Both the position numbers and the translations under genes were made by a program. Shown here piece by piece: positions 1-7,649 of a stretch of DNA of 38,978 nt; positions within the stretch are counted from its first letter, which is position 1, and each line of letters opens with the position of its first letter. Below the pieces are notes generated by a model, which saw only the letters and a list, made by a program, of their open reading frames with translations, had not been told where the DNA came from and made no database searches. The stretch is from the NCBI GenBank assembly GCA_013360695.1, contig JABWBC010000017.1:1-38978 (forward strand), read 5' to 3'. Origin of the DNA: Phycisphaerales bacterium (GTDB lineage Bacteria > Planctomycetota > Phycisphaerae > Phycisphaerales > UBA1924).

Positions 1-1779
1 ATCGATCGCGGGCTGACGTTCGACGTCGCCCTGCCCGATGCGCAGGTCGAGCGGGCCCCGGACGCGCGCAACGCCGCGCGCCGCGCCGCCATGACGCGCC
101 AGGTCCAGGTCTTTGGCCTGGAGAACACCGATCTTCTTTACGACGGCGCGTCCAACAAAGGCTATCTCATCGCGGTCCCCATCCTGGGCGCGATGTCGGG
201 CGAAAACGCCGCAGGCCCCGTAGCGGCGGTGGTCACGCTGCTGACCGACGGCCGCTCGCGCCAGGCGCTGCAGACCACGCTCGCGCTGCTCGAAGTGCTT
301 GCGGGCTACGTGCACACGCACGCCGCGATGCAGCAACTGCGACGCACGCGCTCCGCCAGCGCGTCGCTTGATCTGGCCTCTCGCCTCATCTCTTCGATCA
401 ACCAGGCGCCGTCGTTCAAGGGCGCGACGCTCCAGCTCGTCAACGATCTCTCGCGCCAGCTCGCGGCCGAGCGCGTCGCGTTTGCGTGGGTCGACGGCTG
501 GAGCGCCCGCGGCGATTCCCAGCCCGGGCGTCTGCGCTCGCACGTGCTGGCGATCACCGACACGGAAAACGTGGACCGTCGGATGATCGCGGTGCAGAAA
601 CTCGAAGCCGCGATGGACGAGTGCCTCGACCAGGAGCAGCCGATCTTGTACCCGCCGCCGCCCGCGCAGGGCGCCGGCGCTGACGTGCTTCTCTCGCAGG
701 CGGTGGTTCACGCCCACCGCGAGCTCGCCGCGGCCGACGCACGCTTGAAAGTCACGTCGCTCCCGATCCGGGTCGATGATCGGGTGATCGGCGTGGTGAC
801 GATCGAGACGACCCAGGCGGGCACCGTTGAGCTCTCAACGCTCGAACTGCTCCAGGCCGCGATGGACCTGGTCGCGCCGGTGCTCCGCGTGCGTTACAAC
901 GACGATCGCTGGCTCCACCAGCGCGCCTACGACTCGATGCTCAAGGCCGGGGCATGGCTCGTGGGCCCCAAGCACACGCTGTGGAAGCTCGCGGGCATCG
1001 CGATCGTGGTCGTGACACTGTGCGCGATCTTCATCCGCATCCCCTACCGCGTCGGCGCGCCAATGAGCCTCGAGCCGCGCGAGCCAAGGACCATCAGCGT
1101 TCCCTTCGACGGAGTTCTGCGCGCGCTCGGGCCGGGCATCGAGCCCGGCGCGACGGTCGCCGCGGGCGACGTGCTGGCGGAAATGGACACGACGGAGCTG
1201 GTGCTGAACAGCCTGGACGCGCAAGCCCAGTTGACCGAGGCTTCCAAGCGCGCCGACGAGGCGCTCAAGAAGAACGAGCTGGCCGAGGCCCAGCAGGCCC
1301 AGGCCAAGGCCGACCAGGCCAAGGCCAAGCTCGATCTCTACACCGACCGCATGTCGCGGGCCAAGCTCCGCTCACCCATCGCGGGCAAAGTCATCGCCGG
1401 TGACGTGAAGGACCGCGTCGGTTCCACCGTCCAGATCGGCCAGGCGATCTTCCAGATCGCCGACCTCTCCGACATGGTCGTGACCATCAAGGTCGACGAC
1501 CGCGACATCTCCTTCATCAAGGAGGGCATGACCGGCGAGTTCACGACCAAGGCCGATCCCGCCCGTGAGTTCCCGTTCGTCGTCGAGAAGATCGTGCCGC
1601 TCTCCCAGGCCAAGGACGGCACAAACTCGTTCGTCATCCGCGCCAAGCTCCAGCAGGCCGCCGCGTGGTTCCGCCCGGGCATGGAGGGCATCGCCAAGTT
1701 CAACACCGAGAAGCGCTCGCTGGCGTGGATCGCGGGGCGACGCGTCGTCGACCAGCTGCGCTTGTGGCTGTGGTGGTGA
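1..1779 (+). CDS. GAF-domain HlyD-family membrane adaptor (5' truncated by window)
   Basis: The reading frame is open from base 1, so the true start lies upstream and the ATG at 91 is probably internal. The N-terminal half (about nt 370-900) reads as a GAF-like domain. One membrane segment follows (about nt 988-1041). The rest is a classical membrane-fusion-protein layout: a lipoyl-like half (VPFDGVLRALGPGIEPG...), a short Lys/Ala/Gln-rich coiled-coil hairpin (nt 1230-1350), the returning lipoyl half (LRSPIAGKVIAGDVKDRVGS) and a beta-barrel region. HlyD adaptors bridge an inner-membrane pump to the outer envelope. A cytoplasmic GAF sensor on the same chain is unusual and suggests (inference) ligand-controlled export. 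It lies 164 bp before a PqqD-M50-HlyD protein, then a SecA-like ATPase, all on one strand. HlyD assignment is secure; GAF is likely. Confidence 0.85.
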   Translation: MDRGLTFDVALPDAQVERAPDARNAARRAAMTRQVQVFGLENTDLLYDGASNKGYLIAVPILGAMSGENAAGPVAAVVTLLTDGRSRQALQTTLALLEVLAGYVHTHAAMQQLRRTRSASASLDLASRLISSINQAPSFKGATLQLVNDLSRQLAAERVAFAWVDGWSARGDSQPGRLRSHVLAITDTENVDRRMIAVQKLEAAMDECLDQEQPILYPPPPAQGAGADVLLSQAVVHAHRELAAADARLKVTSLPIRVDDRVIGVVTIETTQAGTVELSTLELLQAAMDLVAPVLRVRYNDDRWLHQRAYDSMLKAGAWLVGPKHTLWKLAGIAIVVVTLCAIFIRIPYRVGAPMSLEPREPRTISVPFDGVLRALGPGIEPGATVAAGDVLAEMDTTELVLNSLDAQAQLTEASKRADEALKKNELAEAQQAQAKADQAKAKLDLYTDRMSRAKLRSPIAGKVIAGDVKDRVGSTVQIGQAIFQIADLSDMVVTIKVDDRDISFIKEGMTGEFTTKADPAREFPFVVEKIVPLSQAKDGTNSFVIRAKLQQAAAWFRPGMEGIAKFNTEKRSLAWIAGRRVVDQLRLWLWW

Positions 1780-1943
1780 GGCGCCACAGCACATGAGCGC
1801 GGCAGCGCAGAATCACACGGCACATGAGAAGAGAAGCCTGAGCCGATCCCAATCCACCGCACGATGACACGAGCCCCAATCACCGAATCTCCGTCACGAC
1901 TCCTCCATGTGGCTCCGTGCCTTGTGGAATGTGAATCCAACGC

Positions 1944-4127
1944 ATGACCGCCGAACGCCCGACATTCTCGCCCTTCTGGCACCGCGTCCGCGCCATGACG
2001 CCGCGCCTCCGCCCGCAGGTGCAGATCACCCGCCAGCACTACCGCGGCATGCGCTGGCATGTCGCCCACGACCCCACCACCAACCAGTTCTTCCGCCTCT
2101 CACCCATCGCCAACGAATTCGTCGGCCTGCTCGACGGCACGCGCACCGTCGAACAAACCTGGGAGCTTGTTCTCTCCCGGTACGGCGATCACGCGCCCAC
2201 CCAGAACGAGATCATCAGTCTCCTCAGCCAGCTCTACAACTCCAACCTCCTCCGGGTCGACCACTCGCCCGAGACCGAGCAGCTCCTGGGCCGCGGCAAG
2301 GAACGCACGAAGAAAAAGGTCCAGCAGCAGGCCATCGGCCTGATGTACTTCCGCGTCAAGCTCTTCAACCCCGATCGCGCCCTGGCCTGGCTCGAACCGA
2401 TCCTGCGCCCGATCCTTAATCCCGTCGGCCTCATCGCCTGGCTCGTGCTCCTCATCGCGGCGCTCGCCACCGTCCTGCCCCACTGGGGCGAGCTGGTCAA
2501 CGGCTTCGGCTCCGCCGTCGCGCCGTCCAACTGGGGCTGGATCATGGCCGTCTTCGTGGTAACCAAGATCATCCACGAAACCGGGCACGGCGTGATCTGC
2601 CGTCGCTTCGGGGGGCAGGTGCCCGAGATGGGCGTGATGATGCTCGTGCTCCTCCCCTCGCCTTACGTCGACGCCTCCGCCTGCTGGGCCTTCGAGAGCA
2701 AGTACCGGCGCATGGCCGTCGGCGCGGGCGGCATGATCTTCGAGCTCTTCGTCGCCTCCGTCGCCGCCTTCGTCTGGACCGCCACCCGCGATACCGGCGG
2801 CCTGACCCACCAGCTCGCCTACAACGCCATGCTCACCTCCGGCGTCTCCACCGTCCTCTTCAACGCCAACCCGCTCATGCGATTCGACGGCTACTACATC
2901 CTCTCCGACCTGCTCGAAGTGCCCAACCTCATGATGCGCTCCACGGGCATGCTCAATCACCTCGCCCAGCGATACATCTACCGCATCAAAAACGCTACGC
3001 CCCCAAGCTCCGTCCCCGGCGAACAGGCGATCCTCATCGTCTATGGCATCGGCGCCCTGATCTACCGCCTCTTCCTCTTCGTCTCGATCACCCTCTACAT
3101 CATGGGCCAGCTCTTTGCGATCGGCCTGATCCTCGCCGTGTGGACCGCCTCCATGTGGTTCATCCTCCCCGTCGGCAAGTTCGTCCACTGGCTCGCCACC
3201 AGCCCCCAGCTCGCCGAGTTTCGCCCACGCGCCATCGCCACAAGCCTCGCCCTCCTTGTCGCTGGCACACTGCTCGTCGGCGCCATCCCCATGCCCGACC
3301 ATCGCACCGCGGGCGGCGTCATCGAGAGCGACCAGACCACCAGCCTCTTCTTCGGCGCCGACGGCTTTGTCACTAAAGTCCACGCGCGCCCCGGAGACTT
3401 CGTCAAACAGGGCGAGCCCATCATCACCTGCGAGAGCCCCGAGCTCGTCGCGCAGCTCCAACTCGCCGACGCCATGCTCGCCGAAGCCCGCTCGACGGAG
3501 CAGCAGGCCGTCGCCAAAAACGAGACCGCCGGCGCCCAGGTCGCCCGCGGACGCGTCGAGGCGATCCAGGCCCAGATCACCCAGGCCCGCCAGCGGGCCG
3601 AACGACTCATCGTCCGCGCTCCATTCGACGGCGTGGTCGTCGGCAACGACCCCGCCAACTTTGTCGGTTCCTATATGAAGGAAGGCAAGGACGCCTGCCA
3701 GTTCGTCAACCCCGCCAACCTCCGTGTCGCCGCCTCGCTCACCCAGTCCGAGGCCTCGTGGCTCTTCGAACTCCCCCACGACCAGTATTCCGTCGAGATG
3801 CGCACTCTCTCGCAGATCGATCGCTTCATCGAGGGCGCCAACATCCGCATCGTCGACGCCGGCCAGCGAGAGCTCCGCCACCAAGCGCTCGCCTATTCTG
3901 GCGGCGGCACGATCGAGACCGAGCAGCAGACCGACCAGCGTTCCGCGCCCCAGGCCAAGCAGCATCTGTGGTGGGTCTATGTCGACGCCAAGGACGCCTC
4001 CCAGCTCGTCGGCGGCAGCGCTCCCGGCGAACGCGTGCGCCTCCGCTTCACGCTCCCGAGCAAGCCTTGGCTGACCCAGTGGGTTGACCGCCTGCAGAAG
4101 GCGATCCAGGGACGAGTCACGATCTGA
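1944..4127 (+). CDS. PqqD-M50 intramembrane metalloprotease with C-terminal HlyD/lipoyl domain
   Basis: This is a 727-residue fusion. Residues about 20-105 resemble PqqD, the domain that captures leader peptides of ribosomally made peptides. The central multi-pass membrane part carries the M50 zinc site HETGH (residues 211-215) and the second M50 motif NPLMRFDGYY (309-318, Asp315 as the likely third ligand). After further membrane helices (last near 430-450) comes a biotin/lipoyl-HlyD module (FVTKVHARPGDFVKQGEP onward) with a coiled-coil hairpin and a returning lipoyl strand (RAPFDGVVVG). The family is usually named peptide zinc metalloprotease or site-2 protease. Known relatives such as YydH act in export or processing of modified peptides. 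The likely role here (inference) is to recognise, cut and hand over a peptide or protein at the inner membrane together with the flanking HlyD and SecA-like proteins. No precursor peptide or radical-SAM enzyme is visible in the window. Confidence 0.88.
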   Translation: MTAERPTFSPFWHRVRAMTPRLRPQVQITRQHYRGMRWHVAHDPTTNQFFRLSPIANEFVGLLDGTRTVEQTWELVLSRYGDHAPTQNEIISLLSQLYNSNLLRVDHSPETEQLLGRGKERTKKKVQQQAIGLMYFRVKLFNPDRALAWLEPILRPILNPVGLIAWLVLLIAALATVLPHWGELVNGFGSAVAPSNWGWIMAVFVVTKIIHETGHGVICRRFGGQVPEMGVMMLVLLPSPYVDASACWAFESKYRRMAVGAGGMIFELFVASVAAFVWTATRDTGGLTHQLAYNAMLTSGVSTVLFNANPLMRFDGYYILSDLLEVPNLMMRSTGMLNHLAQRYIYRIKNATPPSSVPGEQAILIVYGIGALIYRLFLFVSITLYIMGQLFAIGLILAVWTASMWFILPVGKFVHWLATSPQLAEFRPRAIATSLALLVAGTLLVGAIPMPDHRTAGGVIESDQTTSLFFGADGFVTKVHARPGDFVKQGEPIITCESPELVAQLQLADAMLAEARSTEQQAVAKNETAGAQVARGRVEAIQAQITQARQRAERLIVRAPFDGVVVGNDPANFVGSYMKEGKDACQFVNPANLRVAASLTQSEASWLFELPHDQYSVEMRTLSQIDRFIEGANIRIVDAGQRELRHQALAYSGGGTIETEQQTDQRSAPQAKQHLWWVYVDAKDASQLVGGSAPGERVRLRFTLPSKPWLTQWVDRLQKAIQGRVTI

Positions 4128-4240
4128 GAAACACACCATTGAACAGCAGGACGCCCCTTCGCAACCAGTCGAAGCGCTCACACAGGAACGAAGCCACCAA
4201 CCCGATGACGCCTGCCCCTTGCCACGTTTTCCTCCCTTCC

Positions 4241-4280
4241 CTTTGGCCCTTTGGCCATTTGGCCATTTGACCATTCGGCC
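4241..4280. repeat. 8-bp degenerate tandem repeat, 5 copies
   Basis: Five consecutive 8-mers: CTTTGGCC, CTTTGGCC, ATTTGGCC, ATTTGACC, ATTCGGCC. The array ends 8 nt before the ATG of the SecA-like gene, so it occupies the place of its ribosome-binding region. No Shine-Dalgarno sequence is seen there. The rest of the 161-nt gap (4128-4288) shows no gene. Confidence 0.85.
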
Positions 4281-4288
4281 AGATCCCC

Positions 4289-6286
4289 ATGTCCCAAGCC
4301 CTCACCCGCTACCACGCCCTCTTCGAATCGCTCCGCTCGCGGCGCGTGAAGCCCAAGGTGCCGTCGGGCGTCGACATGGCTTTCGGGCGCGTGCTCATGC
4401 GCGCCAAGAACCGCCGCATCAACATCCCCTGGCTCCGCGACCAGGCCCAGCAGATCGACCTGCTTGCTCCCGAGATCCGCAATTGTTCCGACGGCGTGCT
4501 CGACGAACACATCACCCGCGCCCGTGAGCTCTTCGTCCGCGGGCGCGCCGACGAAGAGTCCGTCCGCCGCGCCCTCGCGTTCACGCGCGAGGCCGCCCGG
4601 CGCATCACCGGCGAAGAGCCCTACGTGGTGCAGCTCATGGGTGCGATGGCCCTCTACCACGGACGCATCATCGAGATGCTCACCGGTGAGGGAAAGACGC
4701 TCACCGGCTCCATCGCCGCCCCGCTGCTCGCCTGGCGATACCGACGCCTCCACATCCTCACGGTCAACGACTACCTCGCCGCACGCGACGCGCAGTCCCG
4801 CGGCCAGCTCTACCGGCGCTGCCTCTGCGACGTCGGCGCGATCGTCCAGGAAACCGAGGAACACGAACGCTTCGAGATCTACGCCAAGCCCATCGTCTAC
4901 GGCACGCCAAAGCAGATCACCGCCGACTGGCTGCGCGACCAGATCCGCATGGGCCCCGTCAACACGCCTTGGACCGGACGCCAATCGCTCATGGCGGGCG
5001 GACGCTCGGGCGGCCCGATGATCCCCGGCCTTCACGCGGCGATGGTCGACGAGTGCGATGCCGTCCTGATCGACGAGGGCGTCGTCCCGCTCATCATCGC
5101 ACGCTCGCGCCGCGAGCACGACATGGCCCAGGTCTACCGCGACGCCGCCCGCATCGCCGCCAAGCTCGACGAAGGCCCCGACTATTCCATCGAGCACGTC
5201 TACCGCCGCTCCGAACTCAAACGCCGCGGCCAGCACCGCGCCCGCCAGATGTTCGACGAACTCCCCGACTCCATCTGGCGCGCCACTCGCCGCGCCGAAG
5301 AACTCGTCCGCCAGGCCCTCGTCGCCCGCCACTGCTACACCAATGGCCGCCAATACCAGATCGTCGACGGCAAGGTGATGATCGTCGACGAATACACCGG
5401 GCGATTCCTCGCCGATCGCTCGTGGGAGCACGGCCTGCACCAGGCCGTCGAAGCCAAGGAGGGCCTCGACGTCACCGCCGACCGCGAGACCCTCGCTCGC
5501 ATGAGCTTCCAGCGCTTCTTCCGCAGCTACCCGTTCCTGTGCGGCATGACGGGCACCGCGGCCGACGCGACCGGCGAGATGGAGTCGGTCTACTCGCGCC
5601 CCGTCATCGTCGTGCCGACCAACCGCCCCGTGATCCGCGAGCAGTGGCCGATGCGCGTCTTCCGCACGCAGGAGTCCAAGTGGCGAGCCATCGCCGAGAG
5701 CGTCGCGGAACTGCACGCCAAGGGCCGCCCCGTGCTCGTGGGCACACGCTCCGTCGCCGCGTCGGAGCTCATCTCGCGCCTGCTCGAATCGATCGGCCTG
5801 CCCCATCGCGTGCTCAACGCCAACTTCGACAAGGACGAGGCCGAACTCATCGCCGCCGCCGGCTACGGGCGCGAGCACGGACGTGAGGCCTCCATCACCG
5901 TCGCCACCAACATGGCCGGGCGCGGCACCGACATCAAGCCCGACGACGCCGCCAAGAAGGCCGGCGGCCTGCACGTCATCCTCACCGAACTCCACGGCGC
6001 CAAGCGCATCGACCGCCAGTTCATCGGGCGATCGGGCCGCCAGGGCGACCCCGGCTCGGCCCAGATCTTCGTCTCGCTCGAGGACGAACTCGTCCGCTTC
6101 CACACGCCGCGACTCGCTCGCCTCGTCTCTCGCCGCGTCGCCGCCACCGACGACGAACTCCCGACGTCCTCCCACGCCTGGCTCTTCCGCCTCGCGCAAA
6201 GCCGCTCCGAGAAACGCGACCGCATCAACCGCGCGTCGGTGCTTCGCCAGGACGACTGGATGGACAAGTACCTGCCGGGGCACTGA
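4289..6286 (+). CDS. Shortened SecA-like ATPase (SecA paralogue)
   Basis: 665 residues with the SecA DEAD motor: Walker A GEGKT (133-137), VNDYLAARDAQ (motif Ia), Walker B as DECD (254-257; DEVD in housekeeping SecA), LIDEGVVPLII (LIDEARTPLII in SecA), GMTGTA (419-424), TNMAGRGTDI (540-549) and QFIGRSGRQGD (577-587). The chain stops only about 78 residues after the last motif. Most of the helical scaffold, the helical wing and the zinc-binding tail of a normal ~850-900-residue SecA are therefore absent. The preprotein-crosslinking region between the motor halves is present (residues about 265-360). Housekeeping SecA drives polypeptides through SecYEG. This copy probably serves a dedicated substrate with the upstream M50 and HlyD proteins (inference from synteny). 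The last codons lie in a 31-bp repeat found again at 7726-7756. Confidence 0.9.
   Translation: MSQALTRYHALFESLRSRRVKPKVPSGVDMAFGRVLMRAKNRRINIPWLRDQAQQIDLLAPEIRNCSDGVLDEHITRARELFVRGRADEESVRRALAFTREAARRITGEEPYVVQLMGAMALYHGRIIEMLTGEGKTLTGSIAAPLLAWRYRRLHILTVNDYLAARDAQSRGQLYRRCLCDVGAIVQETEEHERFEIYAKPIVYGTPKQITADWLRDQIRMGPVNTPWTGRQSLMAGGRSGGPMIPGLHAAMVDECDAVLIDEGVVPLIIARSRREHDMAQVYRDAARIAAKLDEGPDYSIEHVYRRSELKRRGQHRARQMFDELPDSIWRATRRAEELVRQALVARHCYTNGRQYQIVDGKVMIVDEYTGRFLADRSWEHGLHQAVEAKEGLDVTADRETLARMSFQRFFRSYPFLCGMTGTAADATGEMESVYSRPVIVVPTNRPVIREQWPMRVFRTQESKWRAIAESVAELHAKGRPVLVGTRSVAASELISRLLESIGLPHRVLNANFDKDEAELIAAAGYGREHGREASITVATNMAGRGTDIKPDDAAKKAGGLHVILTELHGAKRIDRQFIGRSGRQGDPGSAQIFVSLEDELVRFHTPRLARLVSRRVAATDDELPTSSHAWLFRLAQSRSEKRDRINRASVLRQDDWMDKYLPGH
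6256..6286 (+). repeat. 31-bp direct repeat, left copy
   Basis: Exact copy of 7726-7756. Here it encodes the C-terminal WMDKYLPGH and stop codon of the SecA-like protein. The two copies are 1470 bp apart and bracket the FGE-fold gene. Confidence 0.95.
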
Positions 6287-6449
6287 ATTCCGTCCACGAG
6301 AATCGGCCCGAACCGAAAGCCCTCGATTTCGCAACCACGATGTTGCCTGCATGCCGATGGCCAAGCTTCGCAACCAGAAGCCGTCGGCAGGCCCTCTCCT
6401 CCCCGACTCCTATGATCGTCATCGCGCCGTCAGCGCCAGGAGACCACAT

Positions 6450-7649
6450 GTGACATCGATTACGATGACGTCGATTCTGGCGACCTTCGCGTGGTCATGC
6501 TTGCAACCGCCCTCGGAAAACCCCGACCGCCACGCCACAATCTACAATCTGACCGACCACCCCGCGGAATTGTGGGCCGATGCTCGATACCTCGGTCAGG
6601 TTCCCGCGAAGGCATCCAGCAGGGCCGTGGTTACGAACCGAGAACTCAGGACGGCCAACGAGCAGACCTCCCGAGGAGTATCAATCACCATCTGCTCTCG
6701 CTCCGACGATTCCATAGCAATCAATAGCCTCGTTATCCCCACCACGTCCCATCAATCCATCGATGTGGTGTGGGGAGGCGTTGATCGCCCGGAAGATAGC
6801 ATCGTGGCGGATATCGACGCCTCACGCGCCGCGACGCTCGACGATCTCGCTGCGCAGCGCTGGACGTCGCTCGCCGGGTTGCAACTCGGCCAGCCGTCAC
6901 GGTTCTCCGATACCCTAATAGGAAGACGACACCACGACCTTGCCGTCGTCGGACAGGTGCTCTCCGCCACTTCCGGCGGGACCAGCTTGGTCAGCACCTC
7001 GTTTGGCACCCTCCTCCGCCGCATACCCAAGGGCTCCTTCTCGACCGGAACCTCGTACTTTGGCGCACGCGGAAGTGTGAGCCTCACCCGCGATTACTAC
7101 ATGTCCGTCACGGAGGTCACACGCGGTCAACTCGCCTTTCTCAATGGTCAACCGACGCCAAGCTCCGCTGACATCGACCTCCCGGCCTCCGGGATTACCT
7201 GGCAAGAAGCAACCGATGCGTGCGAGCTGATGGGCGGGATTGGCACATGGATCTTTCGACTGCCGACCGAGGCCCAGTGGGAGTTCGCGTGCCAGTCGGG
7301 CAAACTCCGCCGATTCTCACCCGATTCTGTCACGCCGCACCAGGCCATGTGGTGCTCAACCAATTCCGGCGGACGCATGCACCGCGTCGCGACCCGTCTC
7401 CCCAATGACTTTGGCATTTTCGACATGCACGGCAACGTCCGCGAATGGTGCCGCGACTGGTGGAGCCCCAAACCTCCAAACGGGCCTGACCCGACAGGCC
7501 CACAATCGGGGACCGAGCGCGTCCGCCGCGGCGGCGCATATGACACGCCCATGGAGTGGTGCGGCACCGGCTTCCGCGACGCCGGAATTCCGGACCTCGC
7601 TCAATCTTGGCAGGGCTTTCGTGTAGTCCTGGAACTTGCACAAAAGTAG
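6450..7649 (+). CDS. FGE/SUMF1-fold (formylglycine-generating-enzyme-like) exported protein
   Basis: 399 residues from a GTG start chosen because AGGAG (6438-6442) sits 7 nt upstream. An ATG at 6465 is the alternative. The N-terminus has a short hydrophobic stretch (SILATFAWSC), a poor lipoprotein-type signal. Residues about 30-190 are unassigned and include a weakly PEGA-like piece (AELWADARYLGQVP). The C-terminal half is a clear FGE-sulfatase domain: IPKGSF, VTEVTRGQLAFL, RLPTEAQWEFAC, DMHGNVREWCRDWW, RRGGAY, GFRVVL. The cysteine pair of true formylglycine-generating enzymes is not intact after RRGGAY, so catalysis is doubtful. Many bacterial members only bind or scaffold. The gene is visibly lower in GC than its flanks and lies inside the 31-bp direct repeat, which suggests insertion. 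The frame is open further upstream into the SecA-like gene, but that part is noncoding. Confidence 0.75.
   Translation: MTSITMTSILATFAWSCLQPPSENPDRHATIYNLTDHPAELWADARYLGQVPAKASSRAVVTNRELRTANEQTSRGVSITICSRSDDSIAINSLVIPTTSHQSIDVVWGGVDRPEDSIVADIDASRAATLDDLAAQRWTSLAGLQLGQPSRFSDTLIGRRHHDLAVVGQVLSATSGGTSLVSTSFGTLLRRIPKGSFSTGTSYFGARGSVSLTRDYYMSVTEVTRGQLAFLNGQPTPSSADIDLPASGITWQEATDACELMGGIGTWIFRLPTEAQWEFACQSGKLRRFSPDSVTPHQAMWCSTNSGGRMHRVATRLPNDFGIFDMHGNVREWCRDWWSPKPPNGPDPTGPQSGTERVRRGGAYDTPMEWCGTGFRDAGIPDLAQSWQGFRVVLELAQK

Follow-up and report, generated by a model that had tools for sequence, protein, structure and literature searches.

A short SecA, a PqqD-M50-HlyD protein and LEPR-XLL giants: a candidate export cassette in Planctomycetota and other phyla

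A bacterial gene module built around "secondary SecA_DEAD domain proteins" that lack the wing-scaffold domain was described in silico by Kamneva, Poudel and Ward in 2015 (PMC4452313). In the accessible portion of that account, SecA is proposed to be the ATPase and the M50 protein the membrane pore, neither a substrate nor a signal is given, and the broader biological role is called "completely unknown". We found one later mention of the module, in a paper on co-occurrence methods. Here we analyzed such a cassette at the left end of the window, by which we mean the whole 38,978-nucleotide contig JABWBC010000017.1 (G000:C207) from a Phycisphaerales genome (3.84 Mb, 89% complete). Three + strand genes, with intergenic gaps of about 160 bases, encode a GAF-HlyD adaptor (gene A), a PqqD-M50-HlyD protein (gene B) and a short SecA (gene C). 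We propose, with a probability of roughly 0.7, that this cassette works as an export system of its own, serving giant proteins of the cell surface (up to about 14,000 amino acids) that carry the N-terminal motif LEPR-XLL.

A sequence-only reading of the window had presented the three genes as an undescribed system. This does not hold, as the 2015 module has the same genes (SecA_DEAD without SecA_SW, M50-HlyD, HlyD, GAF-HlyD and sometimes OEP) and the same spread (Planctomycetes, Verrucomicrobia, Proteobacteria, Nitrospirae and Chlorobi); an example operon is META1p2402-2399 of Methylorubrum extorquens AM1 (PMC4452313). In the window, SecA_DEAD without SecA_SW likewise lies beside M50/HlyD and GAF/HlyD, and the extra HlyD is found in relatives. 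To the module as described there, we add the PqqD domain, DUF3467, the conserved protease motifs and the LEPR-XLL giants. The arguments on substrate, signal and protease appear to be new, given a literature search that covered no preprints and few subscription papers; the module itself is known but uncharacterized.

Other described systems share parts with the cassette. Type I secretion (HlyB-HlyD-TolC, or LapBCE for giant adhesins) has the same HlyD-type adaptors, TolC-type channel and giant RTX proteins, but in the cassette a SecA-type motor takes the place of a conserved ATP-binding cassette (ABC) gene, the candidate signal is N-terminal rather than C-terminal, and a protease is fused to an adaptor. 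By sequence comparison, the PqqD-M50 part comes closest, among characterized proteins, to the daptide leader peptidase (MpaP/DapP, NF041824; PMC10036551), in which an N-terminal PqqD/RRE-like domain is also fused to an M50 site-2 protease. In daptides, this RRE-dependent intramembrane peptidase removes a leader with the conserved motif ELExMEAP; oxidative decarboxylation, which depends on the RRE of another enzyme, MpaB, is lost when L(-7) or M(-4) of the leader is altered (PMC10036551). NF041824 is the best NCBIfam match of gene B (residues 20-405), but the score is 170 bits against a cut-off of 300; gene B also has an extra HlyD arm, and the precursors associated with the cassette are giant proteins, not short peptides. 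SecA2 proteins resemble gene C as a second SecA in the genome with motor and cross-linking domains in common, whereas gene C has lost the whole wing/scaffold end and is encoded with adaptors and an M50 protein. Finally, LEPR-XLL (NF012209) is a domain defined as an N-terminal motif of giant repetitive proteins, to which the papers we found assign no function; we connect it here with a putative dedicated export cassette.

Architecture of the three proteins

All features described in this section lie on the + strand. Gene B (1944-4127) is predicted from Pfam and NCBIfam matches and an AlphaFold model (mean predicted local distance difference test, pLDDT, of 84) to join a leader-reading domain, an intramembrane zinc protease and a periplasmic adaptor arm in one chain. 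The PqqD/RRE-like domain (residues 39-103, 2058-2252; PF05402, 30 bits) is modeled as three strands followed by helices, ahead of the membrane part, and was matched in 20 of 23 homologues. The Pfam M50 match scored 18.7 bits, under the Pfam cut-off; both zinc-protease motifs are intact, namely HETGH (residues 211-215, 2574-2588), whose H-E-x-x-H is invariant in our alignment, and NANPLMRFDG (residues 307-316, 2862-2891), located by alignment and sequence. Of 113 homologues from several phyla, 112 have both motifs. Because these motifs and the PqqD domain are so widely kept, we argue that selection maintains both cleavage and leader recognition. The HlyD/MacA-like arm (3288-4106; Pfam HlyD, 42 bits) matched the folds of MacA, AcrA and EmrA, with Z about 15 for MacA/AcrA, in a search that used the whole gene B model as query and returned adaptor folds only.

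Gene C (4289-6286) matched SecA_DEAD (263 bits), PP_bind (82 bits) and P-loop_SecA (173 bits). According to Pfam and the model, it retains the SecA motor with its clamp, comprising two motor domains and the cross-linking domain, and the Walker A motif GEGKT (4685-4699), the D-E-x-D of the Walker B/DEAD-type motif DECD (5048-5059) and the helicase motif GRGTD (5918-5932) are invariant in the family alignment. The protein aligns only to residues 23-601 of Bacillus subtilis SecA. The missing part amounts to about 240 of 841 residues: it takes in the wing domain and the C-tail, and also the bulk of the scaffold, including the two-helix finger through which SecA acts on SecYEG. By alignment and model, the last helix (6164-6271) is the start of the scaffold helix equivalent, and the protein ends there, at the counterpart of B. 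subtilis residue ~601-606; the end is identical in 21 of 21 aligned homologues. The truncation noted in the sequence-only reading is thus real, but its extent was overstated as most of the C-terminal half. The model (mean pLDDT 88) best fits substrate-engaged SecA (6itc/5eul, TMq 0.80-0.81), and the protein matches TIGR03714 at 419 bits, under every SecA2 cut-off. Gene C is not the only secA of the genome, a possibility we rejected on finding a separate canonical secA at G000:C25.

Public records label the short SecA "prepilin peptidase" (NZ_AP022333.1:174172-176088; NZ_CP085155.1:317513-319537) or elsewhere "DEAD/DEAH box helicase", and these labels hide the module from name searches. We also observed a second short SecA subfamily of ~627 amino acids, 32-33% identical (L097:8267-10147, L098:8777-10657 and L099:8800-10683), in one Phycisphaerales family. 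Its members lie apart from the M50 gene; the conserved cluster around them contains LptD-like, ArgJ, class V aminotransferase, weak HlyD, SQHop-cyclase-like and PQQ genes.

Gene A (1-1779; Pfam) is cut at its 5' end by the contig edge, and its frame is open at base 1, where the window begins inside the gene. About 96 residues are missing, since a full-length homologue of the same genus (L083:3345-5411) has 688. A GAF domain (~436-876; PF01590, 25 bits) is followed by a transmembrane helix (~973-1059, a single hydrophobic segment at residues 325-353) and an HlyD arm (~1060-1719; HlyD_D23 63 bits, HlyD_3 57 bits). The GAF domain is present in 16 of 17 diverse homologues. Domain matches, motifs and models bore out the identity of all three genes as originally read from the sequence.

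Conservation of the cassette across phyla

We compared gene neighborhoods in 20 kb regions of relatives and at 80 named loci identified by scanning GTDB genomes. The genes are neighbors in related genomes and recur in one order, GAF-HlyD, PqqD-M50-HlyD and short SecA, accompanied by a third HlyD adaptor on one side or the other and often headed by DUF3467. The third adaptor was found in the same genus (L083:2332-3384) and at most loci; its place in the window would lie beyond base 1. The short SecA adjoins the M50 gene at 66 of the 80 named loci, with at least 7 of the other 14 ending at a contig edge, and on 12 of 13 M50-bearing plasmids. Cassettes were found in Planctomycetota, Verrucomicrobiota, Lentisphaerae, Nitrospirota, Chlorobi, Omnitrophota, Proteobacteria and Desulfobacterota. 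Among 61 relatives, the M50 and short SecA genes are both present in 50 and both absent in 11. Within a phylum sample of 294 genomes, 39 of 40 short-SecA genomes among the matches listed also have the M50 gene, the short-SecA counts being lower bounds. This conserved order and co-inheritance across several phyla gives partial support to the joint export and maturation function that had been proposed from synteny.

An outer-membrane channel, suggested earlier as something to look for, adjoins the cassette as an OEP/TolC gene at ~18 of the 80 loci; all 61 relatives encode OEP proteins. No ABC transporter gene is conserved among the recurrent neighbors in relatives or at the 80 loci, and no ABC transporter of the LssB type, which serves giant adhesins, scored over the cut-off in the 61 relatives, most matches lacking the N-terminal part. 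The small precursor peptides that had also been suggested were not found: when recurrent short open reading frames beside the cassettes were checked, the DUF3467 family alone recurred. The precursors that did accompany the cassette are the giant proteins described below.

Several variations were observed around the cassette. A divergent M50-HlyD cassette (L092, L093, L094 and L096; about 23-26% identical) has HlyD2 and mostly DUF3467 but no adjoining SecA; a short SecA is encoded elsewhere in the same genomes. A SapC-family gene occurs in several proteobacterial cassettes (L150:7815-8633, PF07277; L182:8122-8871; NZ_CP085155.1:319530-320351). In the window, the gene right after the short SecA (6384-7649, + strand) encodes an FGE-sulfatase domain (PF03781, 93 bits); by neighborhood comparison, relatives do not keep this gene next to the cassette.

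LEPR-XLL giant proteins as the candidate substrate

Directly upstream of the cassette there is often a giant frame with RTX repeats in Proteobacteria and Desulfobacterota. Measured from stop to stop, such frames abutting the cassette span 14,390 codons in Sulfuritalea, 12,896 in Thioclava pacifica, 9,014 in Desulfoluna, 8,684 in Pseudomonas MMS21 and 3,558 in a Desulfobulbaceae genome, while in Methylobacterium brachythecii a giant frame of 13,628 codons lies ~8 kb from the cassette, beside a SapC-like gene. The giants of Thioclava, Sulfuritalea, Desulfoluna, Pseudomonas and Methylobacterium all carry LEPR-XLL at the N-terminus (5/5); a LEPR search of the Desulfobulbaceae cassette genome gave no match. 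The consensus near the start, F-E-x-L-E-P-R-[LIV]-L-L-S-[AG]-D, is that of NF012209. The 60 residues ahead of LEPR are mostly basic, and a hydrophobic core is absent in nearly all.

The same arrangement was found on four plasmids, where giants of 8,847, 10,603, 12,918 and 10,518 amino acids directly precede the cassette. All four have the LEPR motif at residues 23-53, and two are annotated as LEPR-XLL proteins. The set on the Methylosinus plasmid is complete, consisting of the giant, DUF3467, GAF-HlyD, PqqD/M50, short SecA (labeled "prepilin peptidase"), HlyD and TolC, with no ABC gene. Two Phycisphaerales genomes have LEPR frames next to such genes: one of 7,503 codons beside the cassette and, in the other genome, one of 6,793 codons beside a second-type cassette. 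Those giants that we checked are acidic and contain no more than six cysteines, which suits unfolded export.

To quantify the association, we counted only LEPR matches over the curated cut-off, because the hidden Markov model is only 24 positions long. Such matches were found in 40 of 50 cassette-positive relatives and 0 of 11 cassette-negative relatives (Fisher p=8e-7). Across the 294 phylum genomes, the M50 gene is present in 33 of 35 LEPR genomes and 34 of 259 LEPR-negative genomes (Fisher p=1e-22). Since Fisher tests treat related genomes as independent, we added a within-family permutation, which gave p<=1e-5 for LEPR and M50; in eleven families LEPR was confined to M50 carriers. Outside Planctomycetota, LEPR scored over the cut-off in 26 of 33 cassette genomes and 1 of 14 controls. 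That single LEPR-positive control is Deinobacterium chartae.

RTX repeats were considered as a signal as well. Scanning showed the RTX nonapeptide pattern in cassette neighbors of Proteobacteria and Desulfobacterota and nowhere near the Planctomycetota cassettes, so RTX cannot be the general signal and was ruled out as such. Besides the conserved N-terminal motif, some giants have a C-terminal stretch in common. In Desulfobacterota (L164, L171, L177, L151 and L180), it reads A-G-[LF]-[VA]-G-W followed by basic residues, often with W-R-W, and it is possibly an anchor or a second processing site. RTX giants by the cassette (L150:1-7797 and L169:2-8728) end in a matrixin/serralysin-like part with HExxHxxG, in one of them after a P-domain. 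A Vibrio LEPR protein of ~8000 amino acids with RTX and serralysin domains has a similar C-terminus (PMC10868602).

An export scheme and its competitors

From these gene arrangements and models, we infer the physical steps of an export scheme. The best reading is a type I-like export in which the short SecA would stand in place of the ABC motor and the RRE-M50-HlyD protein would read and probably cut a leader. A very large precursor would carry, in place of a Sec signal peptide, an N-terminal leader whose last residues are F-E-x-L-E-P-R; an aliphatic stretch would come next. The cytoplasmic PqqD/RRE domain of the M50 protein would bind this leader, as RREs do in peptide natural products. The short SecA, with its ATP-driven clamp kept and its SecYEG-working parts lost, would then feed the chain into the membrane. 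The M50 site would cut the leader. The M50 protein, the GAF protein and the third adaptor would connect through their HlyD arms to a TolC-type channel, by which the chain would exit the cell. The GAF domain would gate or sense, and DUF3467 may be an accessory. Placed in register by eye, FExLEPR and ELExMEAP share the pattern hydrophobic, E, x, hydrophobic, E, P/A, then an aliphatic stretch; this resemblance to daptide leaders is suggestive and predicts a cut at or just after LEPR. Passage across the inner membrane and the cleavage site are the least certain steps of the scheme.

Several observations weigh against this proposal. No LEPR match exceeds the cut-off in 10 of the 50 cassette-positive relatives, and 2 of the 35 LEPR genomes in the phylum sample have no M50 gene. 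The genome of the window itself has one modest LEPR match (18.7 bits), which is over the model cut-off and lies on another contig (G000:C199) in a 1,356-codon frame reading LEPRQML. In distant Planctomycetota, the M50 gene is often without a neighboring SecA, with a clear one at 5 of 20 sampled loci; many of these genomes with a lone M50 gene carry a short SecA elsewhere. An ABC transporter lies near a few loci, and giant RTX proteins are classical type I substrates. The register match to the daptide motif is short, and protein modeling yielded neither a complex nor a pore.

That the cassette constitutes a pathway of its own, neither Sec nor type I, with SecA pushing the chain without SecYEG and without an ABC transporter, is a tentative idea that we hold at less than even odds; the RRE-M50 protein would then read and cut a natural-product-style leader on megadalton proteins and form part of the conduit. 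The motor could alternatively serve an accessory Sec route, a SecA2-type protein driving the LEPR giants through SecYEG and the M50, HlyD and TolC proteins acting later, on the periplasmic side. The intact clamp and motor domains and the fit to SecY-engaged SecA are consistent with this, as is the tree of Kamneva et al., which places these proteins next to actinobacterial SecA2 (PMC4452313). We nonetheless consider it somewhat unlikely: every aligned family member lacks the parts that act on SecYEG (wing domain, two-helix finger and C-tail), LEPR N-termini generally have no hydrophobic Sec core, and SecY2 is not among the recurrent neighbor families, although no search was aimed at SecY2. If instead a classical type I ABC transporter encoded elsewhere exported the giants, the cassette would retain or release them at the surface. 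Such an arrangement would account for the RTX repeats, the HlyD and TolC parts and the occasional nearby ABC gene, but the conserved motif is N-terminal, the LssB-type search of the 61 relatives gave nothing over the cut-off, and the Methylosinus operon combines TolC and SecA without an ABC gene, making it quite improbable.

Two further accounts differ in the role given to gene B. In the model of Kamneva et al., the M50 protein is purely a membrane pore that replaces the membrane part of an ABC transporter, and protease activity is irrelevant. A multi-transmembrane protein fused to an adaptor, in a module without a conserved ABC gene, would suit such a pore; retention of both zinc-protease motifs across phyla and of the leader-binding PqqD domain speaks for more than a pore, and we judge this model improbable. 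The likeness of the PqqD-M50 part to the daptide peptidase also raises the prospect of maturation and export of a small peptide, either a ribosomally synthesized and post-translationally modified peptide (RiPP) or a bacteriocin, with an indirect link to the giants. This appears very improbable indeed, as the recurrent neighbors include neither daptide tailoring enzymes nor a small precursor family and the LEPR giants lie within the operon itself.

Proteins of 8,000-14,000 residues rank with the largest on record, and for many of them the export route has yet to be established. The LEPR-XLL tag offers this class a candidate export signal tied to a concrete operon of five to seven genes. If the proposed export system is real, SecA would have been reused without its translocon-specific parts, and RiPP-type leader recognition would operate on giant proteins. 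The operon occurs on plasmids of ordinary Alphaproteobacteria, and a module that had no substrate in 2015 becomes directly testable.

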